From: Liolophura sinensis
Taxonomy: Eukaryota; Mollusca; Polyplacophora; Chitonida; Chitonidae
NCBI RefSeq assembly: GCF_032854445.1
Contig: NC_088295.1
Location: forward strand, 22,369,385 to 22,433,384
DNA: 64,000 bases
Direction: 5' to 3'
The notes under the pieces were generated by a model, which was not told where the DNA came from, searched no databases, and saw only the letters and a list, made by a program, of their open reading frames with translations. Of the stretch, positions 2,488 to 62,905 are shown one piece after another; position 1 is the stretch's first letter; each line of letters opens with the position of its first letter. The translations under genes and the position numbers were made by a program.

Positions 2488-5400
2488 CACGGGCTGCGGA
2501 AGCAAATTAAGAAGCAAATTAAGATTGCCCCGACTAGGCCTATCTCAGCCCAATAGGCGATGGTCCAGGGTAAGCTGGGGATCGCCAGACGGCCGCAGAG
2601 ACCTACATTAAGATTTATGAAGTGCTGAATTCTTATTATCGGTGCCCAGTTGCGCAGAAAAATGCACTTGTTGGGGTGAAATATGGGCGTCAAACTTTCA
2701 GTAGGTAGCGAAAATTGGACCTCGAGTATTACATCTTTCTTCAATTTACATTATAGGGGTAGGCCTACCATATTTTTTCACCTAGTGCCAAATAAATTTT
2801 GGGAAATTCGGGGCTAAAACGATCATACATATCGGAAAATGATGCCGTCTATAGATATAGATGCCATCTGTATTTAAAGTCCCAAAGAATATACTTTTGC
2901 AGATTATTTACTCATTTTAACGAATTTGAATGTGTGGGCCGTCAGCATACTGCACAGGCGGCGCTGTTTTGTGACAGCACAGATGGCGCTGTTTTGATAT
3001 AACAGTCTGTGACAGTGTATAAATACCGTCCAGTAATCGGTTGATTCCATTACAGCTGTAGGCCTGCTTGTAGAAGTACTCAGACTACAATTTGGTTAAT
3101 TCACTGCTCGTTTCACTCAAACTTAATTATTTCACAGATAAAAATTCGAAATGTCGATTCAAAACTATTTCTCTCTAAAATCACGTTCAGAAATTCGTCA
3201 AAATCCGTCTCCTCCGGCAGAGGCTGTCGAAGAAAACCCTCAATGCGGTGACAACGCACCTTCGACATCTGGGTCCCAAACAACTCCACTGTGTACTCGC
3301 ACGACACGTGTGTCATCTACTCCCAATCAGCCCAGATCATTTGATTTTCCGTTCCGTGAGTTTGGGGGAAAAACTATCGTTAAACTGGTTGCATTATCAA
3401 GAAAATACCGACTTAGCTTTCTGTTTTGTATGCCAAAACGCAAATTTTTCGTCAAGGTTACCCTTCTGCAGTGAGGCTGAGCCCACATACATATCTAAAG
3501 GTTTCAGCAACTGGAAAGAAGCACAGGGCGTATTTAGGGAACTCGAAGCTAGCAAGTTTCATAAAGAAGTTGTTGAACGTCTCATTACCTTACCAGCAAC
3601 TACTAGAGATATTGGCGAATCCCTCAGTCAAGCGCATGCTGAAGAAAAGGCGGAAAATAGAAGGATTATATATAAAATATTTGAAAATGTACGTCACTTA
3701 TGTCGACAAGGTTTACATTTCGTGGAAGCAGTGCTGCTGCAGATGAAGACGATGGAAACTTCACTCAGCTTCTCATTTTGCGTGGAAGTGACGTACCCGT
3801 CTCTTTTACAGCGGTTAAAAAAGAAATCGAAAAAATATGTATCGCATGACATTCAGAATGAAATGAATCGTGTTCTTTCGAGACAGGTCATAAATGAAAT
3901 TCTGAAGCCTATCCATCGCTCCAAGTTTTACTGTATAACAGTAGATGAGTTAGCTGACTTTGAACAGGCAGTACTAGTTTTTAGGTGGGTAGGAGAGGAT
4001 TTTATTGTCCACGAAGATTTCGTTGGGGTTTACAAGGTAGATGACATCACTGCTTAAACTTTAGTAAAAGTAATTTTGGACGTAGGCTTTGGACTTTGTA
4101 GAATGAATGTATCAATAGGAAAAGGCAGAGGGCAATGTTATGATGGCGCGAGCAATACAAGTGGGAGAAAATCCGGCTTGGGTGTCAGGTTACAGGAGTT
4201 GGAACCGAAAGCGTTGTTCACACACTGTTATGGCCACTCACTAAATCTTGCGAGCAACGACGTCATCAAAAGGGTAAAAGCTACTAAAGGTGCTTTGGAA
4301 GTTACGCACGAAATCTGTAAATTTATCAAATACTAACCCAGGCGTGAAGCATTGTTTGATAACCTGAAAACAAATATTCAACCCCATACACCTGGAGTCT
4401 GTGGAAGGGGCACTACAATGTGCGACAGACACTGAAGTGAAGGCTAGGATTATTGGTGTGCAATCACAAATGAGAAAATTTGATCTTTTCTTGGGAATAT
4501 CACTCTCATACCTCATTCTTAAACACTCCGATAATCTTAGTAAAACATTACAAAGTCCAAATTTGTCAGCCGTAGTAGGTCAAGAAATTGCTTCTTTGAC
4601 TGTTAAAATCCTTCAAAAAATAAGGCAAAAACCGAGATTTTGATCTGTTTTACGAGAAGATTCTCCAAAACGCAAAATCACTTGACGTAGAAGATCCCGT
4701 GTTACCGCGCACACGCAAGACGCCAGCACGATACGAAGTTGGCGAATGGGCAGGGCATTTCCCTCAGGCGCCGCGAGAGGTCCACAAGCAACAGTACCTT
4801 GATGTTCTTGATCGTATCATTAATGCAATTCATGACAGGTTTGATCAGCTGGGGAAGACTCGCCTGTTGATTTGAAGTCTCTGATTTCCCTTTTTTCTGA
4901 TATGTCACACCATGAGAGGACGTTTTTTTCCCGAGGTTTGCATTGTACTCCGCCTGATCCGTCTGAAAGGCTTTCTCTGCTCTCCGTATGCTAAAAACAT
5001 ACCTGCGATTACTATGACACAGTCCAGGTTAAATGACCTCATGGCCTTACATGTCCTTAAGGATTATACAGACAACGTTGATATCAAAACTACAGTCAAT
5101 CAGTTCGTTGAACTCTCAGACTAATAGGCTATCAATCTTTGCAAAATATTGATAGCTTAAATCGATTGGCAAGCAATTATACCAGCGTAATTATTTCAAC
5201 TAATTGTGTGACTCACATGCGTCCAGTCAATGCAAACCCTTGTCAGAAAAGAGCCAGTTTCTGACGGGCGAATACCAGCCGTTTTTCTGACTCGTTCTGT
5301 CTTTTCAATATACTACATTACTATTATATAGTTGGTTTCATGTGTAGTAGTCTGCACGCCAAACTTCAAAATATAGTAGGATTACCACAACTTCATAGCC

Positions 5401-10346: not shown

Positions 10347-13300
10347 TCATGACAATTGAACATTATTTTCTTTCATACTTTTTTCGACATCTTTGTCATG
10401 GGTATAGTTATAGACGATGGAAAATATAATTGCAAGCCTGTACACTGATAGACATACAATCAAGACGTTTTTAATCAGGAAGAAGATGATGTTATAGCCA
10501 AGGACATTCAAACTCAAGACGACGTATAAGCGAATGCCCAGGAAGGGGCCATCCATGAGAAATAAGGTGACCAGTATGGACCAGACATCAGACGATAGAC
10601 AACCGAGTAAGAAGCAGTTAGGCTCTGACTCGTCTGCGGAATAGCTTCTTCTTACTTTGCGGGACGTCCCATAAGCTCTGCCCCTCCGCCTAGATCTTCT
10701 CTGTGACCTGAAGGATAGTGACTGTATGGGTCTGGACTGGCGGAAATTCCTGGTCATGGTCAGTACGATGACGAACTGCAGCAGGCTCAGTGTCCAGACT
10801 CCCAAGACACAGTACGGAATGATGGGAGAACAGGTGACCCGCCGGTCCTCAAACAACTGAAACAACTCCATGATATCCGAAGCCATAGCGAAATAGACGA
10901 ACAGCAGTAGGGACAACTGGTTACGGTTAATGTGTCCAAGGGGTAGCACCCAGCGGCCGAATATAACAAAACCGAGGAAACTCTGTTTGATCAACTCCAG
11001 CCATGTCTCTCGGCGTAGCGTTACCGTGACATCTACCTGTTCAGTGGAAAAGATCGTTACCAGCGAGTATGGGTTATTATGGACTTCTTGCCAATTCGCG
11101 ATGCAGTGTAGTCTCTCTATGCTGTACGCTTTTAAATATAAATGATATTTATAAAGGTGTGAATATCAATCCTCGGTGTGGCCATTAGGTCTCCATACAT
11201 TGTGGTCAATGAGGTCCCTCCTTGAATGAGTGAGAATTAGTACAGTGTGTTATCATGTGGAACATATTAATAGTCTGTGATCAATGATGTCCCTTCTTGA
11301 TGTGTGAATATCCCTTCCCGCGTTTGTCTATGTGGCTTCCATGCATTATGATCAATGATGCCCGTTCTTGATGTGTGAATATCAGTACTGCGTGTGACCA
11401 TATTGGGCATCGTTATAGTCGCCATGCATTGTGGTCAATGATCACCATTCTTGAATGTGTGAATATCAGTACTGCGTAAGACCATGTGGTCACCATGCAT
11501 TATGGTTAATGAAACCCCTTCTTAAATGTGCGAATATCAGTTCTGCACATGACCATGTAGGACATCATAATAGTCGCCATGCATTCTAGTCAATAATGTC
11601 CCTTTTTGCGTGTAGTCAGTGATGTCTCTTCTTGAAAGTGTGAATATCAGTACATCATGTGGTCAGTGGCATTCCTTCTTGAAAGTGTGAATATCAGTAC
11701 AGCGTGTGACAATGTAGAATATCTTAATAGTCTTCATGCATTAATATGCCGTCATCAATTTGTGAATCCAATTTCGTACATTATATACTTTCTTAGTTCT
11801 TTGGTGGTTTATGTTATACGTCGATTTTGGGAATTGGCCTTGCGATTATTGACCTGGGATGTCCTTACTGGTTGGCGGCTGGTATACGAACGTCTGGTTC
11901 GACGCATAGATTCAGCCTAACATGTGACTGTCTTGGATACCTTACCAGTTCGCCTTGCAGTGTGGTTAATGGTGTGTTATTATCAATGTGTGAATATCAG
12001 CCTGGCGTGTTAATCTACTTGTTGGAATGTATACATGTAATTATATGTTAAGCATCTTGCAATTCGCATTATAATATGACCGTTAATGTACTTTCATGAA
12101 TGAATAATTTTTTGGACATCTTATCAGTTTGCCTGACGCTGTAGTCATTAATATATCTTAAAAATGTTCGACATTGTACAAGCTCACAACATAATATGAC
12201 TTTTAATATGCCTCCATTAGGTCACAAGTAAAACAGTAACCACTATATAGATTATATCAGATAATAAGTGTTCGGTCTGATACTCATATATAGGTTTATT
12301 GGGAAAGGAACAGGAAAAGGAATTAATATTATTATTAATATAACTTAACATTATATTAACTATAACTACATAACTATAACGTATTGGTTAGAGTTACTTG
12401 CCCCTGGTAGCTGAATGGCCTCGTTCACAGCAGACCAGTCAGTTGTTGCGCTGATATTGGTGTATCTGTCTGTGATGTTGCCTACTTGCTGCTGAGTGAA
12501 TGTGTTTAAGCGATCTAGCTCTAGAAGCCAAATACTTGGTACTGTTGCTGCCAGAAATGCAAACGTACTGGAGGAAAACCTGAAACCGAAATGTATTTCA
12601 TGAAGTGTCAATATACAGGACAACTAAAGCAACATTATTACATGGTCATGAATTTGGTAACACATAATTACTCCACCATAAGGATGCCAGATCGCGGTTG
12701 CCAGTTCAAATAACTTAAATGCCACTTCGATATTCAGAATAAAACAGTTATATCAGGCTAATTTAAAACAATATCACCACCAAACTGGTACGTTTACACA
12801 CACACAATAGGATAATTCATCTTTTTAGTTAGTCCATGGAGGTAGAATCTGTTCTACCTCTATGGTTAGGGAGAGTGACAGTCCTTACTCTAGCGTCTCA
12901 GCCTCTCATATTTAAGCTGAAATTCACAAAGGAGAAATAGGCCAATTACTACAGGAGATTAAGAGATGGAAACGGTACATCTCACCATGCACTTACGCCT
13001 GATCAAATATGTATGTCTATAGCACTAATTACTACATCCCATTAAAAACAAATTCATAAAAGAAGGTTGTCTACAACTTTGGCGCATATGACGACGATAT
13101 GGTTTATGGGTGGACACATCCGGGGTTCTGGAAGAAAATAACAGCCAAAGTATATAGCCAGAGATGAATTCGAACAGGCGACCTCATAGGTCAATGGCCT
13201 GGTGGCCTGGTGACCCCTTCTTAAATATATGTGTCAGATCGGTAAAATTTTGACCGCTGATTTTATTTTGTGGTCGTACAATGTCAGTCAAAGTCTAAAC

Positions 13301-19334: not shown

Positions 19335-22300
19335 TCAGTCATTCTTGTGTGTCATTGGAGGAAATTCATTGTCATCATCCAATCTTAAAGCTCCAATTGC
19401 TGGGCTCTCCAAATCTCCCCCAACAGCTCCCTGTTCTAGGTCCTGGTAGGGTTGAGATTCTGTAAGAAGAGAAGTCAAATGACAGTGAGTATTTCAGCAC
19501 AAAGCCAATTCACCAAATTAAAGCTTTAAGCACTCTGAACAGGAAAGACTTCCTAAATTAAGAGTATGCCACTTTGATCAAGAAAGTATATTACAATGCA
19601 TTTTAATTATTTATTTAATTGTTGTTTACTGCCACACTCAAGAATTTTTCATTTATATGGATGGTGGCCAGAATTATGGCTGGAAGAAACCAGACCTTTG
19701 GCTTGCTGCTTGCAAACTTTCTGAAAGGTGACATATAGATGTGTACACCATACTGACAAACATCAGAGTGTGCAAATGGCCTCCCGAGCATTGTCAACTG
19801 CTTCTTGTCACCTAGGCTCTCCTTGAACAATGAGAACAATGTACTAATTCCCTGTCCAAGGTCAGTTTGGAACGCACATCTTATGTGTCCTGGTGATTGG
19901 CAAGCATTGCAGTACTATAAATACAATTTCAATTTGTTTCCATTCCTATTTCTATTTATTGTCAATAAATACCATCCACTAGCCTTGTTTCATGCTAAAA
20001 GAACCATTTTGCATTTCCTGTCAAATGAATTAATGTTAAATATAAACTTAACGTGTTACTTTGGTACAGTAGATGTGGTTCATCCTTAAAAAGCACTTGC
20101 CATAACTTCAACATAAATTTTAAGTTTATGAAATAAAGGAGTTTGGCAACAATTTAATGAAAGTACAGATAAATGGGTGACCACCACAAGTGTGTGTATA
20201 TGCATGAAGCAGGTTAACGGTTACTGGGTAATTGTGAGCCTTAAGATATAGTATGGTGAAGGGAAATTGCAAACCTAAAATGAACTAACAAACTAAAAAC
20301 AAAGCCTACACATTCAAAACAAGCAGAGAGAGAGAACATTCAAAAACCTAATAAGAGAAGGAACAACAACAACAAAAGAAACAGAACACTTCATGAGAAG
20401 TATTTCATATTGTGAACTAAATGGTTATGTACAATGCTGTGTTAGTAAACAAGAAAGCAATGCTCAAAATAAAACACCTAATAATGTAACAGTGTTTTAG
20501 ATGTGATAGATAACTTAGAACAGTAGTCCCAATAGAGATGAAGGAAACAGGGCACTGAACAAACAAAACAGAATGAATCACTCTGTAAACTAATCCTTTA
20601 AAACAAAAACATGTATCTACATACATGTATTACACAAGAAACCTGTGCTGTTTTTCACTGATACTGTCGGGCAGATATGTCAAATTCTGAATATCTGCTG
20701 AATGTCATATAAGTACAGAAGCATATATCGCAGATAATATTTTACCTGGTAATGAGGTGAAGTTAGGAGAGGACTAATGCACCAAATGCTCACTGCATTC
20801 CCAACTCAATCCCACGGAAACACAGGGAAGATACCATGGCAACCAAGGGGAGCAACCCTTACCTGAGTCTGCCAAATACCTACATGAAGTCCTCTCCTTC
20901 TCCTCCTCACTACCCTCAGAAGACAGACTACTCCGCCCTGGAGACACAGGAGCTGGAGTGGTTGTTGGCTTAGCAGCACCTGGCTGACCTTCTTGTCTCC
21001 ACTGTCTCTGAAGCACCTGCGCATAACTTTCGGCTCCCCATGGGGAGGGAGGAGATGACCCAGTGATGGGCTTACCTGGGGGCGTCCCCTGGAGTAGTGG
21101 GCCTTGGTCTGGGCGGCGCACTGTGGAGGCATAGCTGGCCCCAGTCTGGGACAGAGCTTTGTCAACACTGGTCTGGGAGTCGGGTGAATGTGCTCCTTCC
21201 CCAGGCCTACCATCCAACCTGGAAAACACAGAACAACACCTCAGTACAGGGGATAGCCAGCTGTTCAACTTTCACTCTGCACACAGAGTTTTTCATTCAT
21301 AGTAAAAGCAGTGTATGCCATACTGGCGAAACATATTCTTAAACAGCTTATTACTCTAGTTTGGACACAATGACCAGCCTAGATTGACCATCCAGAACGG
21401 TGATGAATAGTTTCACGAAATGCCATAAGCAATAGTGCCATAGTGCACTAAATGAGAATCCCACTTTACAACAGACTTGAGATCTGCATAAAACAGTTTT
21501 ATTGTGTATTCTATATTTAAAATGAATGTGGGACTCACCTATGCTGTCTCAACAACATGCAATCTCCACCTTCATTTGGATCAATGTTATATATGTACAA
21601 ATAACTGTCCTGAGAGGCCACCAGCAGACGGGGTAATTTCTGAATCCTACAGCACAATAACACCTTTGTTAGAGATAATGATAAACATAGAGTCTCCTCA
21701 ATACAAATGTTGCCTTACATCAATTGTATATGTAACTATATCACTATGCATGTACAAATATATATACACCAAGAAAAAAAGAAAAACCCAGAGCAAAAAA
21801 TTCATTTCTAATTTATTTACTTCATTGGTGTTTTACGCCATACTCAAGAATGTTTCACTTCTATGATGGTGGTCAGCTATGTGTTGGGAAGAAACCAGGC
21901 AGAGCCTGGGGGCAACCGATGATGATCTGCAGGCTGCTGGCAGAGCTTCACTTGTAAGACTGAGGAGGAAGCCAGCATGAGCTGGATCTAAACTCACAAT
22001 AATCTCACAAGTGAGAGTCTCTGAAGTCACTGTGCTGCACTAGAACATCACAAACATCAAAAGCTCATCATAGTGCTTTGATTAAATTTATATATATAAG
22101 TGCCACATTGATAACAACCACCATAATTCTACAGATTTCTGTTCACTCAGGTATAGCATTCTTCTTAAAGTTTTGATGTTTTACAATCTTTTACAAGGAC
22201 ACCAATCTTTTACAAGGAGACAAATGTAAAGCTTTATAATGTATATCATTATATAGATTCAAGTTACATAAAAATACAAACTCAATAACCCAGCATGGAT

Positions 22301-31404: not shown

Positions 31405-34400
31405 TCAGTCAGTCGGCCGATCTGTTTGAATGCCTGGGTCTGCTTTTGTTAATTCTGCGTCAGCACCCGCTAATTCGTCAGAGACCTCAGCCTTGTCTAT
31501 CTGCTCAAAGCTGTCCTCAGAGGACGATCCATCTCCTAGGTAATCATCTCCGTCACAAGCCTTTTTATCCAGGCTCAGAAAACTTGAGATTTTATCTGCA
31601 ATTGCACTGTGTTCTCTGTAAAATACATAATTAATATGTACATATGAACAAAGGGAAAATGGCAAAATCGCATAGCAAATTGGTGTAAATTCTCAAAGAA
31701 TGTGATAACTAGAAATCCCCATAATTTAATTATACATGTATCAGTGTTATCTGATACATGTATACTGCAAAACAACTTAAAATCCACAGCCAACAGAATT
31801 CTAATTTTGAGCCAATAATTTCTTATGTACAGGTGCGAAAAATACAAATTACCGAATGTACCATACATAAAGAAGCCATTAAATACTGCTATGACTCTGC
31901 TGAATGTTGAGGTTTTAAAATGATCATTGATTATCTCCCTTACTTCATCTGACAGATCCATGTCATACAGTGCTGAGCTTACCGATTATCTCCAAATGTA
32001 CAGGCATCAGTGATTCCCATGGAAAGGCCGGTGTCGAAGTACAGCACTACTTGGTGGCCTTTCCCAAAATACCTCACCTTTTCCTCCTCAACTCGCACAT
32101 CAACTATTCCACTCAGTTCTGTCACAACTGCAATGTCAAATACACGAGACAACTAAACTGACTGATACTCGTATCATATACATCTGTATGTAAATGATTT
32201 TGAACTCATGAAATAAAATGTTTGTACTACAGTGCTTATTAAACTGCAAAAATGAACCTAAATAAGTCCTTCCCCAACTGGAAATGTAAAGTCACCTTTT
32301 TTCTTTCTTTATTGATTAGATTTTAATGCCATACAAGTCTATTCTTTAGTGTGATGTGATAACTGACTGATTTAAGAATAAAGAAATCACTAAATACTAG
32401 CAGGAAACCAGTCCATCTAAACAACTACTTGACAAACAACAGCTGATCAGCCATTTGAAAGGGCTTTTAATGCCAACCTTTAGGCATATCAATAATGAAA
32501 CTTCACGAAGATTCTTAAGACCTCAGGCTAGGAATGAGCAGGACCAACACAGTAACATTCTGGTTTTTTATCTGCTGTCCTACCAGCTGGCTGTTCCTGA
32601 GAGGGTCGTAGCAGCTTCTGCATCAGGCTGAGTTTATGGAGCTTCACCTGGCCCGAATTCATGTCAAACACACAATCCTAAAGCAGAAAAAACAATCATG
32701 CAGCAGTCCTGAATTTAACACTAAGCAGACAAACTTACAGCAGAAAAACCAATCAAGACAGCAAAAAAGAGTTAGAGGTAAATACAGTTATATCCTGTGA
32801 GGTGTTAGCCTGTATAAAAATTGCTCTTTTTTTCATTCTGTCATATGTTATGATATAATATTAAAAGGGACATAAATAACTCTTTTGATTTTATTTTCAG
32901 TTAGCATGTACACTTGAGACTCAACTTTATCATTTGCTTGAGATAGTGTTAAAGGGAACACACATAATTCTTTTCATTTTATGAAGTCCTTGATGCTCTA
33001 CAGGCCTATACTAGTAAACACAACCTACCTCCCAATCTTCTAGGCAGGAGATCCCCAGAAAAATTGCACCAGCAACATAAACCACTTTCCACAGCAAACA
33101 GTCTAATACAAGAAATTGAATGAAAACACCTTTCAGATCAATACATAATGTGAAACTTTTAAATCATTACAAACAAGGACATATGCATATACACAAAATT
33201 ATTAAAAGGGTGAAGTTTAAGAGGTAATAGTTTATTGGAGAATTATTCAATGGGTATCTGAGTAAATTTATATCCTTCAACAGACTGACAAATTCTCCTT
33301 GAAAGACACGAAGTGCCTGAAACTTGATACATTGTAAAAAATATACATTATTTTATTAGAAATAAGCACAATGAAACTGGTTGTATTTTACTGTATTGTA
33401 CAGACCATTTGTGAATCCGGGAACATTTCTCATCCAACCTATTTTACATTTTAATTCATACAGGTAACATTTTTGTTGCCATTTACCCACCTGAGCCATA
33501 ATAGGCAGCACCAAACCCAAAAGCAATCAACCCTGCGGATAAAGTTAAATGAAAAAACAAGATTTTAAAATGTAGAAACCAGATGACTGAAAAAAGAACC
33601 CAACATATGCATGTTCAGTCTTAAACTATTGGTATGTAACATAAATTAGGTGTGAAGTATTAACAACAACAAAAAGCATCATTGTTGGAGCTGTATTTAT
33701 CTATTTGATGAAGTAAGTTTAATAGGTAGGGGAAACCAAAGTGCCTGAAGTATACTAAAATACCTACTTATGGCAAGTTACTTTCCCACATGTGAGATGC
33801 AGATTTGCAAACTGTATGGATGAAGGACAAGTGATGCTGTCTTCAAGCAAACAGCCCTGCAAACACAGCTGATCACATATTGTCATCTTAGTTCCAAGAA
33901 CAAAGAAACCTGGGAATTCTAAAAAATGACTGTAAAGATCCATTTCAACAGTTTAATCTCAAACCAGTTCATCTTTTTCAAGGATTTGGGAAGCTCTTTG
34001 TGGGGCAAATGCATGTTTACATATAGGTACTTCACATCTACATCTTCACAACCTCGAAGTAGATGTGACAGCTGGTTTGTTGGACGCAGCAGTGGATCAA
34101 TTATTTGGCAATAGTCCAAGGTAAACACACAAAAAAGAATTTCCGCACACTTCCCAAGTGACATGCAAGTAATGACTGAATGATAGAACTCCACAAGCTC
34201 CACAGAACAATGTGCATTTGTAATACTGAACACAGTCAACATATTGCAAATGACAACAACTTTATATCTGGAAAACAGAGATGTTATTCTCCATCAATTT
34301 GGTTGTTGGATATATTTGTTACAGAATACATGAAACGCTTGAATTTTATTTAATTCTTTAATTTGTAAACACAGTCAACATATTGCAAATGACAACAACT

Positions 34401-35129
34401 TTATATCTGGAAAACAGAGATGTTATTCTCCATCAGTTTGGTTGTTGGATATATTTGTTACAGAATACATGAAACGCTTGGTTTTTATTTCTTAATATGA
34501 GGCAGCTTTCTTCTTGAGGTGTAAAAATGGTTTTAAACCATAATTTTCCTAAGGCCCCAGCAGTCAGTACAAAAATTAAATAGCCTACTGTGGTGATGTT
34601 AATGGCAACCGCTGTCAAATTAATTTAGTTGTGGGGAGAGCTTGAATTAGCTGGTCTCGCATTACCAGTACCGTATGTTAAATCAATGACATCATTTCTC
34701 AATTGCCACAATCATTGATGGAAAATATTCATAAAATTAGACGCGTTACCAGGAAATATAACATATGCCTCAAAAATGATTTTTTTTCTTCTAATTTTAG
34801 GGGAATATCATTCTTTATTTTCCAAAAAAACATGTTCTTTGTTTTATAGCACCGTTTCATGTAGACTTTCAGTCATTTCTTTTGTTGTTCTGTAAACCTG
34901 TCAATTAAGTTATTTCTACCAGTTAATAAGTTCTTGGTATAACAGATTCTCTGGCTATTATTTTTGAAAAAAGACAAACTACTGTCCCAGACCGGAAGAT
35001 GGCATAATATTAATACACTCATCTCTCCAATACAATCTTACCTACTAAAATACTGTAGGACCAAATACTTGGTTCTCTAGCCAAGTGAAGTCTCTCCTTA
35101 CTCTCTTCCTTCACGGTAATGTAACCCAT
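31405..35129 (-). CDS. CYBC1: CYBC1/EROS, cytochrome b-245 chaperone 1, six coding exons
   Basis: Minus-strand coding exons: 35129-35042, 33532-33491, 33102-33029, 32677-32584, 32127-31983, 31615-31405. They sum to 654 bases (217 residues plus stop) with all phases consistent. In mammals EROS is an ER membrane protein that stabilises the gp91phox-p22phox heterodimer and is needed for the phagocyte respiratory burst. Two membrane segments are visible (about residues 25-42, GLIAFGFGAAYYG, and 47-66, VVYVAGAIFLGISCL). Family signatures LEDWE, VEEEKVRYFGKGHQVVL and the C-terminal ADKISSFL follow. The last 45 residues are an acidic Ser/Asp/Glu tail longer than in human (human protein about 187 residues). 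An acceptor at 35160-35159 upstream of the ATG and a donor GTAAGT at 36011-36006 suggest a noncoding first exon ending at 36012. Confidence 0.95.
33775..33895 (-). mobile_element. SINE family B-like fragment in CYBC1 intron 1
   Basis: The stretch with TGGATGAAGGACAAGTGATG and CTGATCACATATTGTCATCT matches, with changes, the body of the copy at 46860-46970 (TGGTGAAAGACAAGTGATCA, CACTTATTGTCACC). It has neither tRNA head nor tail. Confidence 0.5.
34231..34490. repeat. Near-identical tandem duplication, period 139 bases, in CYBC1 intron 1
   Basis: CACAGTCAACATATTGCAAA begins at 34231 and again at 34370. Across about 115 bases the two copies appear to differ at one position (CATCAATTTGG versus CATCAGTTTGG) before diverging near the T-rich ends. 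The low divergence indicates a recent duplication. Confidence 0.9.
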
Positions 35130-37729: not shown

Positions 37730-40700
37730 ACTAGTCCATCTTGATTTGAAGGGAGCTCCCCCAAAACTATCCTACCTGCAGCAAGTAAGTTAACAACTGG
37801 AGGCGCATATCACCCTGGCTTTATACACCAGGAGAGGGCCTCCGTGGCTGAGGTGGTGAGTGTGACAGTATGGCACACTGACCCAATAGCCTCTCACAAA
37901 TGCGGTCACAGTGAGCTCAAGTCCAGCTCGTACTGACTTCCTCTTCGGATGTACATGAGAATGTCTGTCAACAACATGCAGATGGTAATGGGTTCCGCCC
38001 CCCCCACTTCCAGCATAATGCTGGCCACCGTCGTATAAGTGAAATATTCATTATTACGACAAAAAACAATGAAATAAATAAATAAATGAATAAATTACAC
38101 ACCAGGACAGTTTACATCAGAATTGTCAGTGTCTCCTCACTCTTTATAAAGTGAGTATGTTTGCACATCTAATCAGAAAATGAGTTAATAGCCTGTGTGG
38201 CATGTTTGGTGTCCATACATGCACTTTCACATCGTATTACGTGGTAAAAATATTATTATCAAAATGTGTTGGTTTAGGCCTGTTAGTGATGAAGGACTGA
38301 ACTGTTAAAATGACAGTTTATTCACATAATTTTCTGTTGTTCGTCACATGAGCTACCTGTATGGTGTAGAATGTACAGCTATGTACTCTAGCTACTATGT
38401 AGTTATACCATGTATTAAAAGATTAAACCTGATAATATAAGATAAAAAGTTGAGTATAAAAGTTTCTTTTGCTTGGACTTTTGATACTCATGTTTTAGAT
38501 ATTCCCCCTGCTGAAGAAGTGGAATGCTAATGGTCTGCTGATAGAATATGAGGATATGTTTCCTTATGAGGGCAATCTCAAGCCACTAGCTAGCCCAAGT
38601 GCCTACAGGTGAGAACAGGTCTTATGCTCTGTGTTATGGTAAAACTTCCATGGTGTTCCATTGCTGTCATGAAAAAGACGAAGACTTGACACATAACATA
38701 CCGACATCAAGTTTAAAGCTGATATAGATTTTCTCTCTGGGATATTAGGTTACTACTAGTTCAGTTAAATTTACCATGCACATTTAGATAGGTTTTAGTT
38801 TCCCGACTTCAGTTTTATAGATTCCTTTTTATGCTTGTCTGAATCATCCAAAGAGGAAACATGTTAAAATCATCATCAATAAACCATCTTATAACAGTAA
38901 TCCAGCCATTCAAACTTTTGAATGGAGGAAATGTTTTGAATTTGAATTTCCTCAAGTTTAGTCAGACTCTTATTGTGAGTAAGTTATACATTTGATGCTT
39001 TCTTATAGTAAAGATGATGTGCGAGCTATAGGAGAAATGGCAAAGGATAATGATTTACTGGTTATCCCCCTTGTGCAGACATTTGGCCATTTAGAGGTAC
39101 CAGTATCAGCCTTATTGCAACATTCTTGTATAATCTGACGCATTTTCTTTTGGTGTGCAAGATTATTGTAATGCTTTGTAAAAGAAGGAACTAAATGTTT
39201 TTTAAAAGCTGCATGACGAGAAAGAAATATGTCCTTGAATGATTGTTCATAGTTTGTAAGGAAAGATCTCCTTTAATTTCAGTATCACATAAGTGATGCT
39301 CCCCTGTTATAATTTCCTATAATAGTTGTCATGTAACTAACTCTTTGATGTCAGTACGATATCTTTTAGTTTGTGCTGAAGCATCCAGAGTTCTTCATAC
39401 TGAGGGAAGATCCTGGTCATACTCGTTCTCTGTGCCCATCAAAACCAGGTGGGTTATCTCGTCTAGTGTGCATTGCATAATCAGCTCGAGAGTGGGTTAT
39501 AGGGTTCTCAGTAAGTCTGCCTAAAGGCCCAGTCACACCAGAGCTACGACTACCCATGAGATCTGTGATTTGTCGTGATGCTTTGATCGTGACCGATTTA
39601 CCCTGGTTGAAACCCAATAAGTTATCTGCAGCCAGACCTAAACATACCCAGCATCACCCAGCAAATTTCACTTATATAGCCATGGTAGTATGTAATTACA
39701 TGAAGACAAAGGCACTCTGTGATAAAAAATGTGCATTCGATGAATGAAAATAGTTTCCGATGCTCGAATGATAAAGTCTGACAAATTAAGATTAGTGCGA
39801 TATTTATCTTCAGATTAATCCACATTCATCAGGAACCCCCATGATATATTGTGCAATCAGTCCAAGATTTAAGACGATTACCTGTGATTTTTTGCATTAA
39901 CTGACCAAAAGCTGGGGATTTACTCTGGACAATCTGTTTTCCACCCACATAACTGACCACGATGACATAAGTGAAAATTCTTTAGTATTGTGCTAAGCAA
40001 CAGTCAAACAAATAAACAAATTGGATGGAATGGTTAAAATGCTGACGCGCCGCGACTATCAGGCTGTTGACTAATGAGGTCACATGGTCAAATCCAGCTC
40101 TTGTCTGTTCTGCTGCGGCATTAAATTGCGAGAAATAATAAGTTTTCTAATTATTGAAAAGATGATTGTAAACATTGTGATTTTTTCCATCTGTCATGTC
40201 CTTGTTGTCAGACAGCCTGAGACTGGTTGTTGAGATGATAGATCAGGTGATGTCACTTCACCCCCACTTGCGCTGGTTCCATATTGGGGCGGATGAGGTA
40301 AGCCATACAGTGTTACGCTCAACTTTACATAGGGCACAGAAATTTGTATCTTTGCAGAGAGTATTTATATGAATTCTTGTGTGAAAATTACTTTTAGTTG
40401 TGCGGCTTATCTCCAAACATGTCTTGCATGTGGTTATTATTTCCGCTAAATTATGTTTATATGTATCTTGTTTATCTTTTTGTCACATGTTACCGTAAAA
40501 TACATTTTACTCGCACGGTCATCAAGTCTAGCCTCCTTTTTCAAGAAGAATTCCGTTGTTGCATTCAGAGGTCAGCATTGTTGAAAAAGTATTTAGTTTA
40601 CTTCTTTTTAACCTTGAGGCTATCTCAGACATAAATTAATTAATTAAAATTAATTAAATTAAATTAATTAATCAGTTAACTGCTAAGATTACTTGTGGAG

Positions 40701-43700
40701 TGATATTCGACTAATATTTCCAGTGTGCACCATCATATTGATTCTAATTCTCATCTTTGGTGGTTCAGATTGCATGAAAAGATTTCTTTGTATTCATCTT
40801 GATGACCCTATACACACAATCATATTGATCCTGGACCTATCACCATGATCATATTGATTCTGGATCCATAACCATAGTCATATTGATTTTGGACCTATAA
40901 CCATAATCATGTTGATCCCGGACCTATAACCATAATCATATTGATTCTGGACCCATAACCATAATCATATTGATTCTGGACCTATAACCATAATCATATT
41001 GATTGTGGACGTATAACCATAATCATGTTGATTCTGGACCTATAACCATAATCATGTTGATTCTGGACCCATGACCATAACCATAATCATATTGATTCTG
41101 GACCTATAACCATAATCATATTGATCCCGGACCTATAACCATAATCATATTGATTCTGGACCCATAACCATAGTCATATTGATTGTGGACCTATAACCAT
41201 AATCATGTTGATCCCGGACCTATAACCATAATCATATTGATTGTGGACCCACAACCATAGTCATATTGATTGTGGACCTATAATCATGATCATATTGATT
41301 CTGGACCCATAACCATAATCATATTGATTGTGGACCTATAACCATAATCATATTGATCCCGGACCTATAACCATAATCATATTGATTGTGGACCCACAAC
41401 CATAGTCATATTGATTGTGGACCTATAACCATAATCATATTGATTCTGGACCTATAACCATAATCATATTGATTGTGGACCTATAACCATAATCATATTG
41501 GTTCTGGGCCCACAACCATATCATATTGATTGTGGACCTATAATCATAATCATATTGATTCTGAACCCCTAACCATAATCATATTGATTGTGGACCCATG
41601 ACCATAATCATGTTGATTCTGGGCCTATAACTATGATCAAATTGATTCTGGACCTATAACCATAATCAAATTGATTCTGGACCTATAACCATAATCATAT
41701 TGATTGTGGACCTATAACCATAATCATATTGATTCTGGACCTATAACCATAATCATATTCATCCCGGACTTAAAACCATAATCATGCTGATTCTGAACCC
41801 CTAACCATAATCATATTGATTCTGGACCCATAACCATAATCATGTTGATTCTGGGCCTATAACTATGATCAAATTGATTCTGGACCTATAACCATAATCA
41901 AATTGATTCTGGACCTATAACCATAATCATATTGATTGTGGACCTATAACCATAATCATATTGATTGTGGACCTATAACCATAATCATATTGATCCTGGA
42001 CCTAAAGCCATAATCATATTGATTCTGGACCCATAACCATAATCATATTGATTGTGGACCTATAACCATAATCATATTGATTGTGGACCCATGATCATAA
42101 CCATAATCATAATCATATTGATTTTGGACCCATAACCATAATCATATTGATTGTGGACCCATAACCATAATCATATTGATTGTGGACCCATAATCATAAT
42201 CATATTGATTCTGGACCTATAACCATAATCATATTGATTGTGGACCTTTTCAACTGTGTTGTGGTCATTTGGCTTGAAGATAAGCTTTTTTTGGTATGAA
42301 AATATATTTTATATGTCATATATTACATTAATGACCTGCAGTTGACCATCATGTTTTTTGTTTAACAGGTGTATCACCTGGGCGAGTGTGATTTGTGTAA
42401 GGCAAGGATGCTAGACGAGGGCCTGACCAAAGAGATGCTGTTCCTGTCACACGTACGGTCAGTGGCTCACCAGGTCATGACCAAATTTCCAACCACACAG
42501 CTTATTATGTGGGATGATATGTTCAGGCTATCTGATGCACAGGTCATTAAAGGTACAAACTTTAGAAATAACACCATTACAGATGGTAGCATTCTTGATC
42601 AGTTATACTTAATGTACTGCACTGGATGGATCCAGAAGTTCTAAATCATAGCAGCGTTTGGTAATTAAAGGATTAGGGTCCAGATTTAGCTACATGTCCT
42701 CAGTGTAAAGATTATAACCTGTTCAACAGCGTGTTACCAGGAAGGCCTTTGAGAAATGTAATTATCGCTTCAAATCGACCAAAGATTTACTGCCCTAGCT
42801 GATCTTCGTCCGGCCACCCTGTAAGGCTCAGCGGGAGACGTCACAGATGGTCAACCCAAGTCTGACTGGCCTGTGTAACCTGGGAATTCGTATCAAAACA
42901 ATATCATTTTAAAGATGAAATCTAGCTACACAGAAGCAAATATACTGCTGTATCATTTTGAACACATAGTATATGATGTTGAAGTTCCGATTTAACACAC
43001 TGACAGCTCTGGTCAGACTGCATATTCCGAGTTTACAGATGTTGAATTTGATCTTGTCCTGACATTTCCAACTGCACTGGCAACACGGACTGGTAAGCTG
43101 TGGCTTTATCCTGTGTTACGCTGTAGGTCTGCATTTTGTGCGTATATCAAATTCAATATTTGCTATTCTTTCCTTCTGTCAACTTCACAATAAATATCAT
43201 TCTATTCCTCAAGTGGATTTACTTAAAAAATGGGTTTGCGGGAATTCATTTTTGTGCATTTAATCAAAGCAATACCGAAATGAAATTCTTACAAGTGTTT
43301 AATTTTCCTAGTTATATTATGGCCGGAATTACTCAAGCATGTCAAACAGGTATTAGAAATGGTGGCTTTAATCCACTTTTGTTTCCTGTGGTGTCGTTAA
43401 TCCTTGTAATCTGGAGCCGACAGAGATTGAAACAATGGGGGATGAATTATTACTGTGTTAGATTGCTTTCGCACCTACCCTAAGCAGTGTTCAAAGAGAT
43501 GTCACTTGTTTTCACACCTTTGACAAGTAATTTTAACCAACACCAGTCATTAATTCTTGAATTATTCAGTCAAGCAACTCGATTAGTTTTGGTTTATTTT
43601 CAGTTTTAATCATCCTCTGTAGCTGGTCACAAACGGCTATCATTGCCGTAGCTGTCAAAGGGTGTACACAGTTCACAATTTGTTAGAAGTGGTCTCATTA

Positions 43701-46700
43701 GTCCACAGGGGGGAAACAGCCAATGGGATAGTGTGTATCAAAGCGACATTCATTGGAAGCCATCACGTGGCTGTATCTACTTTTCTTTCACTTAACTAGC
43801 ATATCATAGATTGATCAAAATAATGACAAATGAACTCCCGCTTTTTTTTTACACCAACCAACAAGCCCTGTCACCGGAGTTAATATACACATATCCTGTC
43901 AGCCTGGCAAAGATTTGGCCGTGTTTGGTGGCTTTGTGCCGTGAATCCACACATTCCTGAGGGCCAAATCATCCGGAAACTTGACAAAAATAACTCTAGG
44001 GTTCTTCAAGGACCTGTTTCACAACAATATGCAGCAGCAACAAACCATTTTGTGGAGAAATTTGATATGCTTGTTGTCACTTGTGTGGCTTTTGAACACT
44101 GAACTAATCGTGAAACTGACAGCTGCGTAAAGGTTGGACTTGTATGATGCCAATCGGGAGAGACTTTCGACTTTGGTGGAAAAAATGCACAAACCCAGCC
44201 TCATTATCTGGTGATTTTAATGCCATGTTACTCAAACTTCTGCACTTTCTTCCAATATTTGTTTATAAAATTTAACAGTATATACAGGACTAGCTAATTA
44301 TGAATAAATAAACAATCTGAACTCTAATTCTTTAACATTAATCCAATTGAAAATGTATTTTTCTTTTACAAGGACAAGCCTGTTATTAACATTTATGTTT
44401 TGTTCTTGATTGTTTTTTTTTAATCTCTTAATTTTCAGAAAGTGGAATTGGATCTCTTGTTGAGCCAATGGTATGGTACTACCAGCCGTGTGATATACCA
44501 GGTAGGCTAAAAGACTGTGTGCTCCAGGATAACTCTAATTTTAGTTTAAACAGTCATTTTCATATTGTAGTTGTTGTTCTTGCATTGCTAGCCATATAAC
44601 TAAATTGTTTTAACTGGAGTTGTGGTGTTGCTCATCAATTACATTCAGTCACTATTCTTAACACCTGTTTCAGTGATAGACATATGGAAGAAATACTCAC
44701 AGGTGTTTTCCAACATCTGGCTGGGGAGTGCCTTTAAGGGTGCCACAGGAATCCAGCAGTATGCCACAGACATCACTTATCACCTTGGAAACCACGTAAT
44801 GTGGCTCACTGTGATGATGAAAGAAGCTGGGAAGTTTGATCATATCCGTGGCATTGCTTTGACAGGCTGGCAGAGGTGAGACTTCATAGGACAGATCAAT
44901 ATAGGATAACACTATTCTTTTCAAGGATTTAGGGAGATGGCCTTGGCCAAGTAAGGAGCCTCTCATCAATGTGGTTGCTGTGAGTTCAAGTCCAGCTCAT
45001 GCCGGCCTTCTCCTGGGTTGTATGTGGGAAGGTCTGCCAGTAACTTGTAGATGATCATCGGCTCTACCTGGTTTCCTCCCACCATGATGCTGGCGGCTAT
45101 CGTACAAGGGACATATTCTTGAGTACAGCATAAAACACCAATAAGTAAATAAAAAAAGTAAAGGATTTATGACAAACTAAATAGTAGTTTAGACAACTGT
45201 GGCAGTCTGTTTGCTACTTAGTTTCAGGACTGAGGACTGGAGCTTTAGAAAGACTGTAGATAAAGGCAATATTGTGTGCTGTTATATGTTAGGACATGCC
45301 CTAAAATGCATATTAAGAAATTAAAGTCAAGTATCTTTTATGTTTGTTAGGCAAACGTGAGTCTATTTTGTCTTGTCAGCAGTTGAACAATGGTGAGACA
45401 TGAGCATGTATTTCATTTGTTGGCAATAATAATTATAGAAACAGTAGTCCATTTTCCTTCTTCAGAGGAGTTGGTAAACATGTGAATTAATTCAAATCGT
45501 TGTTATTTTTAAACAAAACTGTAAATAGGGGAGAGGTGGTTGTCAAATTTTCCTGTAATTAAATTAATATACTTAGGTTCTTTTATTGAAGTAGTGCCAG
45601 AAATATTGAAATGGAGAAAAGCATGTCAAATGTGAATCACAGCTTCCTGCAGTGGAGCTTTTGGAATTTATTAACAGTGTAACAGTGCAGCAACATACTG
45701 GTGGTGTAGTAACGTATTATGGAGTTTCTTGTTATGTAAGTAACACTTTTGTTATATGGTACTTAGAATGTAGCAACAAACAGGGGGTGAAGCAACATAC
45801 TTGTAGTATAGCAACATTTGTGATGTGGCAACATTCTTGGACTTGTAGTGTAACAACACTTGTGATGTGGCAACATTCTTGTAGTGTGGCAACTTATGTG
45901 ATGTGGCAACATTCTTGTACTTGTGTTGCAACTCATTCCTTACAGACATGAGGTGTACATCTCAGTGTGAGGTATAGATGAGGTGTATATGGGGTGTACA
46001 CCTCATGTACACCTTAGTGTGAGATATGTATGAGGTGTACACCCCATCTATATTATCTGAGGTGTACTGTACCTCAAGTGCACCCCGGCCATATGCCTAT
46101 ACCTCAGATGTTCCTCAGGAACTTAGACAAAAATCAGCACTTAGAAGATGCACATCAGTTACATCTTAGAAACTTTGAAAATTTAAAAAAAAATGAATGA
46201 TATACCTTGGGTACACATTAGAAACTTTGTAGGTACAAACCAGCAATTCTGCCAGTACTTCTGACAGTATATCTTCTTGCCATTACTTTGAGTGTTTATG
46301 TTTCTCGCTAATTGTTTAGTTTCTGTTCACAGATATGATCATTTCACAGTTCTGTGTGAGCTCTTGCCTGCTGCCATACCATCACTGGGCCTATGTTTAC
46401 AAACCATTCACACAGGTAACCTACAGCTGATCATTGTGTCGCTCATATATTAGCATTATTTGGCTTCTCTCAGCCCCTTTTCCCATCTGTTTCATCTTCT
46501 TGGACTTCCCTGTCCACTGTTCATGGCTTTGTTTTTTCCTTGTAAAGCCTTTTCTTGAGCCAGATCCTCTTTTTTTTTCTAAACTGTTTTATCTTCAGGA
46601 TTTTTTCTGTGAACTTCTCTGGGCGTTTTCTTTACAATGCCATTTCTAGGGTCGTATCCTGCATCCTTTGGCTGTGACATTTCTGACTGAATGGTGTAAT

Positions 46701-52219: not shown

Positions 52220-55200
52220 ATGGAGTTGGAAGGGCTGTCGACACGACAAGCCTTAATGATGCTCTATGAGGAGATAGAAGCAGAGCTAAAGGTTTTCAAA
52301 TCTGCATTCAAGAGTGCTAGATGGAAGCTTCCATTTCAAGTTTTCCGAATGAGTAACACAAAGTCTTCCTTCCACTGGTCCAGCATTATACTACTTGTGT
52401 TGTGTGCAGGTTTCTTACTTGTAGCATATGGAGTGCCTATCTCTGTTGGGTATGTTAATAGTCATACATTACCTTAGCTTACATGATTATGTTCAGTTAT
52501 ATGGTAAAAATAAACACACACGTGCTAGCAGGCTAAATCTGCGTTAAATGTGGAAAATTGAAGCAGTATGATGTGGTCAACTGAAACATGCCAGTCTCCA
52601 TGTACATACATTTACAGGTCTCTTGTATACATACATGTGGGCTTATCAGTTCAGAAACTGATTTTGACTTTATTACTGTTAATTTAAGGAGAATGTATAT
52701 TTTTAATAATGCAGAGACGAAACCCTTGAGTTGTCGTTTTTGCATTTGTGTTAAAGGTCACTATTGTTGTCAGAGAACAACTTATTTAATAACATGCTAT
52801 CACAAAATGAATGCTCATAATTACCCCTTAATGCTGTCATCAATTGGTGTAGATTTACTTGCTTCTTGAGATGAAAGATGTTTCATATTATTCAACATAT
52901 TGGTAAAAGTTCAAGTGCAGATTAAGTACTTTTAGGTAAATGCATGAAGTACCTGTACCCTTATACTTTGTGTACAGAGATAATGGTGGAAACTTTTTTG
53001 TTGGACAGAGGCGAGGAGAAGTTTTACAAAGACCCCTGGTGGACAGTGGAGGCATTGGTGTTGCTGGTGATCCTGGCTCTCAGCTGCTACCTGACAGGCT
53101 GGGATTACTCTGTGGAGAAGGAGGAAGTAGCCAGGTTACTGGAGCAGGCACTTGACAAGGTCAAAGGTCAGCAGTTTATGGTATCATGGGATACAGTAGC
53201 ACTTTGTCTGAGGTTAAATTATGATTCGTGAAGTGAATAGTGGAGACTCAGAGGGTATAAGGAAGAGTGTTTTCTGGCCAGTTGTCTCCCTTGTTCATCA
53301 TCTAAGTGTCAGATGTTGGAAGGTCACAATGTTATGCTTGCTATAATACGGTGGCTGTAAGACTCAAAGTTGCACTGACATGATAACTAAGCAACTTTTG
53401 TTAAGCATCATTTCTCCCTCATCAGCAGTTCGTATATGCACCTGTTAACTCTGAAATTCAGCTGTTTAGTTATTAATGTCTTTGGTGCTATACACCATAC
53501 CTAGTAATACTTTCAGTAGGGTGGGAGGAAACTAGGTAGAGCCTGGGCTAGACCCACAACCATCTGCAGATTGTTGACAGATCTTCCTACAGAATGACTG
53601 GAGAGGAAGCCAGCATGACTTTCAACATCCAGCGACTGCATTATGGAGAGGCTTGTGATGAAATTCAATTATTCAAATATATTGTATTGTGTAACTTTCA
53701 CCACTATATAATCTTCTGAGCCTTTCGGGAAATAAGCTTTACAATGGCATTGATCACACCTTATTGTCTTTGATCAGATTGTTACAAAAGCTGCACCTGG
53801 AATGGAAGAAACTACCCTGACATCCATTCCCCACTTTCTCCATCTGTATCCCTTCAGTGGACCTTACGGGAAGGAGAAGTGGTCAATATGCCAAAGTGTT
53901 TGCTGGTCAAAGGGGACATTGTACTGCTGAGACCAGGTCAGCTTGTGCCTGCAATGTGTCGCAGCCTTGAGGTTTGTGGTGTTGAACTCACGTAATACAA
54001 GTGTATGATGTGCTTGAAAGGCTGACAGTATTGAAATTTGAGCTTGCAACAACCCTTAGGTCAGTAGTGTTAAGCCAAAAAAATTTCTTCTTTGATCTGA
54101 TAGTAGCCCAAAGCATTCTGTATCAGAATCCCGTCGTGATGGATTCAAGGAAGTCAAGATATGTACATTTAAAGTTAAAAGAATGCTAAAGTATGAAGTA
54201 AGGTTCATCATAAAGACAACTGAAAACTATGCTTCAGAATACTTCCATTTATTTTTTCAGATTTTTTGGAGAGTGTTGAAAGGCATTCAAATATTTGAAA
54301 ACAATGGTGGGCTTTATGAGCTATACTGACGGTATCTAGAAACCCTGATGTTACATCACCTTTTTTCCTGATGTTCACCAGAGGAAACAAATTTTTGGCA
54401 ACATTATTTCAGTAATCTTTCACGCATGGGTGAAAAGAGTTATTCCAACATTCAGTGTAGCGATTAGAGTTCGATACCTGGTTTCCTCCCACCATAATGC
54501 TGGCACCCGTCATATAAATGAAATATTCTTGGGTATGGTGTAAAACATCAATCAAATGAATAAATAAATAAATACAGTGGGATAATCTTCCTGTTCCTAA
54601 CCTCTGATAGTATGGTCCTTAAAGTCCACCTTAAAAGTTAATTGTCTAAGCGCCTTTAGCTCTTTTCATAAAAAGCTAAAAAAATAAATGAAAGTATATT
54701 TATGCATAGTTTTAAGTGGTCTACTTAGTGATGCCTACTTTGATTTTTAGAGGTCGTCCCCTTTAATTTTTCAGAGCTGAAATTCTTCATAGTGTAATTC
54801 CAATAGAGACCATTATCTGAAAAGTGTTTTTTGAATATGACGCTATTTGAGATGGGTTGGCTATTGAACTTCAGAATTTCAGTATGTATTGATTTTATTT
54901 ATTTATTTATTTATTTAATTAGTGTCGTGGGTGAAAAACATGACCATCCAAAGCATTGGTTTCATGATATAAATCCTAATACATATATGCTGTTTTTCTG
55001 TTTGTTTTTGTACAGGACTACCCTTCTGAGGTCACTCTAAGTGGAGGTGAAGTGTTTGCTCCTGGGGAACAGAAAAGCTCGGAAAGCTTTAGTTTACCCC
55101 AAGGGCGTACTCCTCTCAAGGCTCAGAAATTCCTCTTGTTAGAAACACCCTATATCTACAATTTGAGGTAAGATATCTTAGAGGTTACTTCTGGCACTCT

Positions 55201-58200
55201 TTGATTTATGAAACTCAAGGTGAATTTCATGGAATTGTTGCAAGCTTAAGGATTATATGAAACAAATTTTCAGGTATCTTAACACGCCTTCTACATAACA
55301 TATTGTCAGATTCACCAGTCCTTTGTTTGATGGATTTTCTCCAACAGGCAGATGCTACGCCGAGACCGTGAGAGGCCTGTCAGTGTAGTGGACAATGAGC
55401 GGTACTATGTGTGCACAGTCTGGTTAGAGCGCAGGGTGCTTCCAATAGTGTTTGTAAGTACTGGATATGAATATGCCTGTTCATCATACCTGTCAAAAAA
55501 TATTTTACATGATGGTCTTTGTGGCATAAGCTGGTTATAATCTTGCTGTTCCATACCAGCAGACCTGGATACATGAGGTCATATGTTGAATTTAGCCTTT
55601 GGTGGTTCAGTTGCAATTTTATGACAAGTACATGTAGGAATAATGTGAGATGTTGAGGTGTCTTCCCCAAGGCCTGTCACTGGTTTCCTCCTCAAGACCT
55701 CTTAACCTTTTTATTCCTGAAGACCTCAAACTGGTTTCTTCCCAAAGGCCAGCATTTAATAAAATTACTCAAGTATACCAGAATACATTTCAATACACCA
55801 GTGATATGAAAATAAATGAGTCACTGCAATTCTAAATTTGAGCACAATGTGATGCTTGCGGCACTTTCCTTTTGTGTTGACCCCAGAAGCATAACGCTTT
55901 AACATAAAGTGTGAATAAAGGTATGATTTTAATTTGATTTTTTACAGGTTATTATGATCATTGTCAGTGTGGTCAGGTTTGTGTATTTGAGGGGCAGTGT
56001 GGGAGACTGGACAGAAATGATCCTTGTACTGCCAGTAAGTACATCTATTCTTCTGTCATATTGACCATAATTGCATTGAAACTGTTTTCTTTTTCAACTT
56101 TTACATACTGATGAGAAATCAAATCTCTTACAACCTTGTTCCAACTTTTGAAAGTCTTATAAACTGCTGGTATGCTGTGTTACATCAAAAATTATGTGTT
56201 AGCCCTCAATGAAACAATCTGGTCTGCATTATTTCATGTTCATTATAATGTGTTATGTGCTGTCTTTTTATACATTAAAATGTACTACTGATAACCTTTT
56301 CTTCCCATTTCAGATCCATGCTCTGCTTCCTTTGTTACCAATCATGTTCCCAGTATTGTGGAAAGTGTTGAACTATTTTGGTCAGGCCAGACTGCTTACA
56401 GCTTTTGAGATATGTAAAGAGCAGAAGGTAACTACTGTAACTAAGAAATTGATGCTTTACGCTGCGAAAGGAGAAAATTGTTTTGACAGAGATCATACGA
56501 CATTTTACCATCTGAAATTTGGAGTTGTGTTTGTTTGTTGTTGTGGGAATGTGGTTGATGATTCCACAAGTAGTTTTTGTAGCATCTGTGTGTACATGTT
56601 TATTTATCCTTGTACCGGGTTTAGCTGTGCTTTTTGGATTCACACTTGTAGAAATGTTTCTATGTTTCCTGATTTGTCAAGCACATTATGTAACATTTAC
56701 ATTCGTGAATAGCCAGATAGGCCCTTTGATGTTTATTTAATGTCATTTCTGACAGGTTTGATGTATCATTGCCTCTCTTCGTGTGTTGGGTTTGTTCCCT
56801 CCAATATAGTGATTTTTTTATTGTTTGCATGGAAATATTGCATTGTATGTACCTGTATTCTCTAGCTGCAGGTTGCCCGGCTGAAATATTGCTGAGGTGG
56901 TGTTAAGCCATAATCATTCATTCATTCTAGCTGCAGGTGTCTGAGGGAAGCTTTGACAGTAACAGCGTGATCTCTGTGGAGGAGGCTCGTGTTAACATGG
57001 ACTGGAAACAGGTACTGCATACGATGTGGCTCATTGTCATAGGCCGTTCACCCCTGCTCACCAGACAGGCCAACATCATGCACGTCATGGGATCTGTCAC
57101 TGTAAGTCAGATGTTCTCCTAAAATTTGTAGCACTAGAGATTTCTTTACTGAGCCAGTGTCAGTATAACATGAGGACGAGTAGAGGGACTATAAATATGA
57201 TGTTATTGGGACTATAATGGCATTGTTAGGAAACTGTCTGGATATAACCAAGATATTCTTGATATTAGTCCTATCCTGTTCATAAAGATATCTGTGGTTA
57301 AGAAGTCATGTGTTACTGAAACTATTTTTTTTGTGGGAATGTTTATATATTTCTGAGAGAAATATATACCGTGTGTTGCCTAGTAACCAGTTAATTCATT
57401 CACATTAAAATAATGTGAACATTCAGTAACAAGTTTTGTTTTTGTATGAAGATGAAAGAAAATTGCATTTTATGTTCCCTTGTGTCTTTTCAGTCTTTTT
57501 GTTGTGTGGATAAGAAGGGAGTGTTGTCCTGGGCCAATCCAACTGCAGAGAAGGTTTTTTTCATGACCAAGCAGCCGTCAGATAAACAAGATTCTCAGAT
57601 CTCAACTAGCCGTTTTGTGGATGAAATAATCATGGAAAGTTCTGCTGAATCCAAGAAAGGACACAAAAAGAAGAGAAACCTGTCAAGCATGAATGGTAAA
57701 TACAGATAGCCTGTTTTCTGTATCTGAAGAGTGTAGCACTTTTGTAATGCAAAAAGTAGTGTTTTCACTGTCAGTACATAAACTATGTATCAGTATCACT
57801 ATTTTGTATAATCATAAATAGGGGTCTCTGTGGCCGAGATGACCCAGGAGCCTCTCACCAATGTAGTCACTGTGAGTTCAAGTCCAGCCACCTCATGCTT
57901 CGTCTCCAGCCGTATGTGGGAAGGTCAGATAAATAAATAATCATAAATAAATCTGAAAGTAAGAAATTTGAAATGTCAGGTGTGTAAAGGGATGGAGTAT
58001 ATATCATTCCAGGGTAACATTGGGTAAGATTAACATTTGCTCATCATTGTTAAAAATAGTGTGAGTTTATTTCTTGAGGGTGAGGCAATAAGTCATAGAG
58101 CTTTTCTTACTTTAAGCCATAGAAAAAAAGTAGATATTTCAGACTAGTTTTACCACTGTAACAGTCCCAAACAGCCGATGAGACAGGCTTGTTGGAAATC

Positions 58201-61739: not shown

Positions 61740-61962
61740 AATATTTATTTATTTATTTATTTGATTGATGATTACACTCTACTCAATAACATTTAACTCA
61801 TACGACGGCAACCAGCAATATGGTGGGAGGAAACCGGGCATAGCCCAGGGGGAAACCCACGACCATCCGCAGGCTGCTGTCCGACCTTCCCATGTATGGC
61901 TAGAGTGGAAGTCAGCATGAGCTGGACTTGAACTCACAGTGGCCACATTTGTGCAATATCTG
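61740..61962 (-). mobile_element. SINE family A copy in the last TMEM94 intron
   Basis: On the minus strand: GTGAGTTCAAGTCCAGCTCA, GGGAAGGTCGGACAGCAGCC, GGGTTTCCCCCTGGGCTATG, the CGTATGAGTTAAATG tail region and an A-rich tail of AAATAAATAAATAAATA. The tRNA head is mostly lost. Confidence 0.85.
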
Positions 61963-62744: not shown

Positions 62745-62905
62745 CATGTCCTCATTCATTTACTTATTTATGTTATCTGATTGTCATTTTACACTGCACT
62801 CGAGAGTATTTGACTAAATACAAGATTGGCGAGCATTATGGTGGGAGGATTCTGGGCAAACCCACGACCATCCACAGCCTGGTTGCTGGCAGACCTTGCC
62901 ATGTT
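62745..62905 (-). mobile_element. SINE family A fragment in the last TMEM94 intron
   Basis: On the minus strand: CATGGCAAGGTCTGCCAGCA, GTGGATGGTCGTGGGTTTGC, TCCTCCCACCATAATGCTCG and an AT-rich tail. The head is absent and part of the body is deleted. Confidence 0.8.

Follow-up and report, generated by a model that had tools for sequence, protein, structure and literature searches.

The window analysed is a stretch of 64,000 nucleotides, and the feature of interest lies at an exon boundary of TMEM94. Eight exons in the window, joined by phase, give 402 residues in one open frame. The joined product matches the solved TMEM94 (9ywq chain A, Transmembrane protein 94) with E = 2.5e-63 over query residues 23–362, in agreement with an earlier note on this DNA that had named TMEM94 as the host gene. 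Pfam reports a partial E1-E2 ATPase domain at 25.9 bits, below the curated cut-off of 28.1. Another coding feature of the window is an open frame on the minus strand at 10350–11165, with a Pfam Tmem26 match (E = 3.1e-44).

The two exons flanking the boundary (Table 1) both align to TMEM94. The downstream exon aligns across GRSPLL...GSVT, indicating that it is genuine TMEM94 sequence. This exon can begin in two ways. The short form has 165 bases, and the long form, starting at 56931, adds Leu-Gln to reach 171 bases; both forms end in phase 0 at 57101. The residues at the junction itself align poorly. The Leu-Gln difference is therefore plausible, and lies beyond the resolution of homology.

At the junction TCTAGCTGCAGGT occurs twice, as a perfect 13-base repeat with zero mismatches and a start-to-start distance of 65 bases. 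Each copy contains the acceptor AG, as the earlier note had claimed. Between the copies lies the insert TGCCCGGCTGAAATATTGCTGAGGTGGTGTTAAGCCATAATCATTCATTCAT, and the whole unit of repeat, insert and repeat occupies 78 bases. The insert had been given as 53 bases and the unit as 79; each number is one too large, because 52 bases separate the copies and the last base of the unit is 56938. The TC that opens the right copy may equally complete the final ATTC unit of the insert; the GGT that ends the left copy can be assigned to either the target or the insert. The true duplication would therefore measure between 8 and 13 bases.

Table 1. Features at the TMEM94 exon boundary, and SINE-like copies in the window
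Feature	Position	Strand	Remarks
TMEM94 exon upstream of the insertion	56314–56427	+	Phase 0 end, donor AAG/GTAACT; identified by ORF, phase and TMEM94 match
Old intron end	56811–56860	+	No AG before 56864–56865; single yUnAy match at 56820
Left TCTAGCTGCAGGT copy	56861–56873	+	TAG acceptor ending at 56865, CAG acceptor ending at 56871; each leads to the stop
Insert, likely 3′ end of a 5′-truncated SINE/LINE	56874–56925	+	ATTC-repeat end
TGA stop met from both left acceptors	56893–56895	+	
Right TCTAGCTGCAGGT copy	56926–56938	+	TAG acceptor ending at 56930, CAG acceptor ending at 56936; each keeps the frame
TMEM94 exon downstream of the insertion, short form	56937–57101	+	165 bases (VSEGSF...GSVT), donor ACT/GTAAGT
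SINE-like family, about 200 bases, AAAT-repeat tail	1516–1735, 19602–19693, 21796–22035, 37873–38091, 44954–45153, 53514–53618, 54475–54574, 57839–57926, 61747–61953, 62747–62904		At least 10 copies, both orientations

The frequency of such repeats was estimated by counting exact 13-base pairs with a spacing of 20–120 bases in 50 windows of 64 kb simulated by a first-order Markov model. The simulated windows contained a mean of 0.24 pairs per 64 kb (maximum 3, n = 50), and a chance origin of the TCTAGCTGCAGGT repeat was rejected on this basis. The real window gave 56 pair rows after neighbours were merged, with pairs starting at 40.5–42.5 kb, the minisatellite, excluded beforehand. The remaining 55 rows are confined to five stretches (7.2, 11.3–11.7, 16.6, 35.4 and 45.8 kb), which are tandem, repeated or low-complexity DNA. 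The minisatellite itself spans 40807–42247, with about 49 copies of a 29-base unit, and a 139-base unit is present at 34229–34490 in tandem duplication, 97% alike. At the junction an ordinary tandem duplication was rejected, since the repeat does not include the 52 intervening bases and a search for a tandem array at the insertion site with a lowered score threshold found none. The arrangement supports an insertion whose putative target-site duplication spans the splice acceptor of a coding exon.

The consequences of the two copies for the reading frame are distinct. From both left acceptors the frame reads ...KYC and then meets the TGA. From both right acceptors it stays open, with or without Leu-Gln. 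The stop after left-copy splicing and the retention of frame from the right copy, both proposed earlier, thus apply to TAG and CAG alike. The proposed pair of in-frame AGs also holds: each copy carries a TAG and a CAG six bases apart, whose alternative use adds or drops Leu-Gln. The TGA is about 206 bases upstream of the next junction, and decay of the mRNA is therefore predicted. The interval between the TCTAGCTGCAGGT copies contains two further AGs, with their ends at 56896 and 56907. Because the insertion appears to have copied the acceptor and the left copy leads to a stop, normal protein would require the copy downstream of the insert. The frame would imply dependence of the host on the right copy only on the condition that normal TMEM94 is produced from this allele. 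The frame also leaves two stop-avoiding routes that were absent from the earlier reading, namely skipping of the exon and excision of the insert after use of the left acceptor. On balance we lean, by a little, toward the explanation that insertion of a retroposon fragment duplicated the acceptor and that normal TMEM94, if made, comes mainly via the right copy.

The splice signals around the two copies were compared. The earlier note had set an ancestral pyrimidine tract on the left against a SINE-made tract on the right. This contrast does not hold in composition, for all four candidate acceptors have 12 pyrimidines of 17 at positions −20 to −4; eight other TMEM94 acceptors have 9 to 15 of 17. 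A local acceptor matrix was trained on eight TMEM94 sites, all of them CAG and two of them (52201 and 52977) from provisional exons, a set too small to decide anything. On this matrix the left CAG scores 2.65, the right CAG −3.03, the right TAG −7.53 and the left TAG −17.71, at percentiles 97.6, 85.5, 60.1 and 6.5, respectively, among the 3,567 AGs of the window. Both CAGs are inside the leave-one-out range of the training acceptors (−3.71 to 11.03) and both TAGs are outside it, a result due in part to the training set, which has CAG ends throughout and by construction penalises TAG. The local splice scores thus give the right copy no preference and do not support its choice over the left CAG, which ranks top on the eight-site matrix.

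Candidate branch-point motifs were found on both sides. A scan of 56781–56936 located TAAT 17 bases upstream of the right TAG, and CTGA motifs, which may serve as branch points, lie 46 and 35 bases upstream of the same TAG, inside the insert. For the left copy the scan found one upstream yUnAy match, 45 bases before the left TAG.

These signals bear on the possibility that the allele with the insertion is in the minority and either damaging or neutral. In that case most splicing would still use the left copy, or use would be mixed, the mRNA would contain the stop, the other haplotype would suffice and no new dependence would have arisen. The original upstream signals do stay with the left copy, the left CAG does score best where tract richness is equal in all four acceptors, and the two repeat copies are identical, as expected of a young insertion. 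The single open frame formed by the eight TMEM94 exons speaks against a damaged allele, with little weight, as it comes from one haplotype and a partial gene. We give this explanation a modest chance.

Skipping of the exon from most transcripts of the allele would yield an in-frame protein without about 55 residues. The exon permits this, since its length is 165 or 171 bases and both of its ends are in phase 0. Its sequence, however, aligns to the solved TMEM94, so that its loss would probably be harmful to the protein, and we consider predominant skipping very unlikely.

The preferred explanation, insertion of a retroposon fragment, further depends on the identity of the insert. A flanking duplication together with a simple-repeat 3′ end abutting the downstream copy is the form of a 5′-truncated retroposon. 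Both the flanking repeat and the terminal simple repeat that mark target-primed reverse transcription are present here. Because the tail sits at the downstream end, the element would be in sense orientation to the gene. The insert ends in CATTCATTCATTC (56915–56927), which abuts the right copy and is the sole such run in the window with one mismatch or fewer; an ATTC run by itself is unremarkable, being present in 16 of 100 shuffled windows. ATTC-tailed elements of similar kind are common in gastropods. The insert is likely, short of proof, to be the tail of a 5′-truncated retroposon lying sense to the gene. With 52 bases left, any 5′ part that carried the Pol III promoter of a SINE or the coding region of a LINE would be missing.

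The window also carries the SINE-like family of Table 1. Ten copies were taken forward, and additional partial matches exist in the window. The insert was compared with eight of these ten copies; two in which the match stops short of the tail were omitted. When the whole insert was aligned with the consensus of the eight tails, 34 of 10,000 shuffles scored as well; when its last 11 bases were removed, equally good scores came from 165 of 10,000 shuffles and, among 5,000 random stretches of the window, from 101. With the repeat excluded, the score against one of the eight single tails was equalled by 8 of 1,000 shuffles, and the scores against the other seven by 52 to 735 of 1,000. Summed across the eight tails, 20 of 1,000 shuffles were as good. 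The similarity of the insert to the SINE-like tails is suggestive only. The earlier claim of a SINE tail is supported by the anatomy of the insert, repeat-flanked with an ATTC end, and weakly by its similarity to the family.

Other possible traces of mobile elements are found near one end of the window. A reverse transcriptase remnant in two frames, with a Pfam RVT_1 match below the cut-off, occupies 545–1356, and one SINE-like copy (1516–1735) sits downstream of it. An open frame at 3179–4054 matches DUF4371 (E = 8.4e-08), a domain common among hAT-type transposon proteins.

Searches for relatives of the insert gave little. No second close copy was found within the 64-kb window, where scanning for Rfam families and tRNAs gave no match either. 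Exact degenerate patterns of the insert matched 2, 0 and 0 viral-contig loci and 6 prokaryote-genome loci. All eight loci were read; their likeness is confined to the pattern itself, the flanks are unlike the insert, and they were rejected as chance matches. Among the papers listed by a literature search with short sequence words, none concerned a mollusc repeat, as judged by titles.

The lack of a second close copy in 64 kb, and the weak resemblance to the SINE-like tails, would also be compatible with an origin in the repair of a break, where a templated or filler insertion copied the 13 bases by accident. The perfect flanking repeat, the tetranucleotide repeat at one copy and some similarity to the tails suit retroposition better, and we hold the repair origin to be improbable.

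Least probable of all is removal of the insert as its own tiny, introner-like intron. The left acceptor would be used first, and a donor CAG/GTTGCC at 56872 would then be joined to the right TAG or CAG; the frame would be kept, through either a micro-exon of 6 bases or a recursive site of zero length. The two micro-exon combinations, the only ones computed, both translate in frame, and introners are described in PMC9860276 as recruiting splice sites out of target duplications. Against this, the donor GTTGCC scores −1.83, under all eight other TMEM94 donors (−0.80 to 4.10, leave-one-out), and the intron would be very short, at 59 or 65 bases.

On the favoured explanation, target-primed reverse transcription would have inserted a short 3′ piece of a non-LTR retroposon (a SINE, or a LINE represented by its 3′ end). 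The insertion point would lie exactly across the TMEM94 intron/exon junction, with the element in sense orientation. The duplicated target would have carried the acceptor, leaving the gene with two acceptor copies. The left copy would have retained the old branch point and pyrimidine tract, and its use would lead to the TGA and presumably to mRNA decay. The right copy would give the correct frame, with its upstream signals now supplied by the insert: the ATTC repeat as the tract, and the CTGA motifs as possible branch points. We infer that, if the allele yields normal TMEM94, it does so mainly through the right acceptor, with leakage to the left copy giving a poison product.

A bolder version can be drawn. 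In it the allele would be common or even fixed, every functional TMEM94 mRNA would rely on a retroposon-made branch point and tract, the ATTC tail would act as a length-variable splicing dial as in merle, and the left acceptor would be a standing poison-exon switch. We regard it as doubtful.

One short insertion would have left a conserved gene with its acceptor in duplicate, the two identical copies standing 65 bases from each other in unlike surroundings, one leading to a stop and the other to the correct frame. The TMEM94 site is in this respect a natural experiment on whether branch-point context or acceptor sequence decides the choice between acceptors. It also bears on the question of how a gene can withstand an insertion that lands on one of its splice sites.

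The closest published precedent that we found is canine merle, in which, according to PMC7349775 and PMC6091007, a SINE lies at the boundary of intron 10 and exon 11 of PMEL (SILV) with a 15 bp target duplication. There tail length influences whether splicing uses the original acceptor, on the far side of the insert, or another within the SINE. The likeness to the TMEM94 site is close. At both sites a short retroposon, a probable one in the case of TMEM94, occupies an acceptor between the copies of a target duplication that spans this acceptor, with both copies at TMEM94 holding TAG and CAG. In both, normal protein would need the acceptor beyond the insert, and a simple-repeat tail lies in the acceptor region. 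The merle SINE, however, is antisense and offers a long oligo(dT) as the tract, whereas the TMEM94 insert appears to be sense, with a short ATTC repeat, and is a tiny fragment. The cryptic acceptor of merle is within the SINE, whereas the competing acceptor at TMEM94 is the duplicated left copy. Merle is backed by RNA and phenotype data, and the TMEM94 case is known from sequence alone.

Introners are intron-making transposons, some of which take their splice sites from target duplications, as set out in PMC9860276. They resemble the present case in that the insertion duplicates splice signals and that the insert could formally be excised in frame. They differ in that the TMEM94 insert is at the edge of an existing intron, looks retroposon-like rather than DNA-transposon-like, and has a weak would-be donor. 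The TAG and CAG of each copy also recall tandem acceptors, both NAGNAG and wider pairs (PMC3250501), in adding or dropping whole codons; here the spacing is six bases, two residues are affected, and the pair itself is duplicated. Given the merle and introner precedents, insertions of this kind are already known, and the TMEM94 site would be a new and compact instance.
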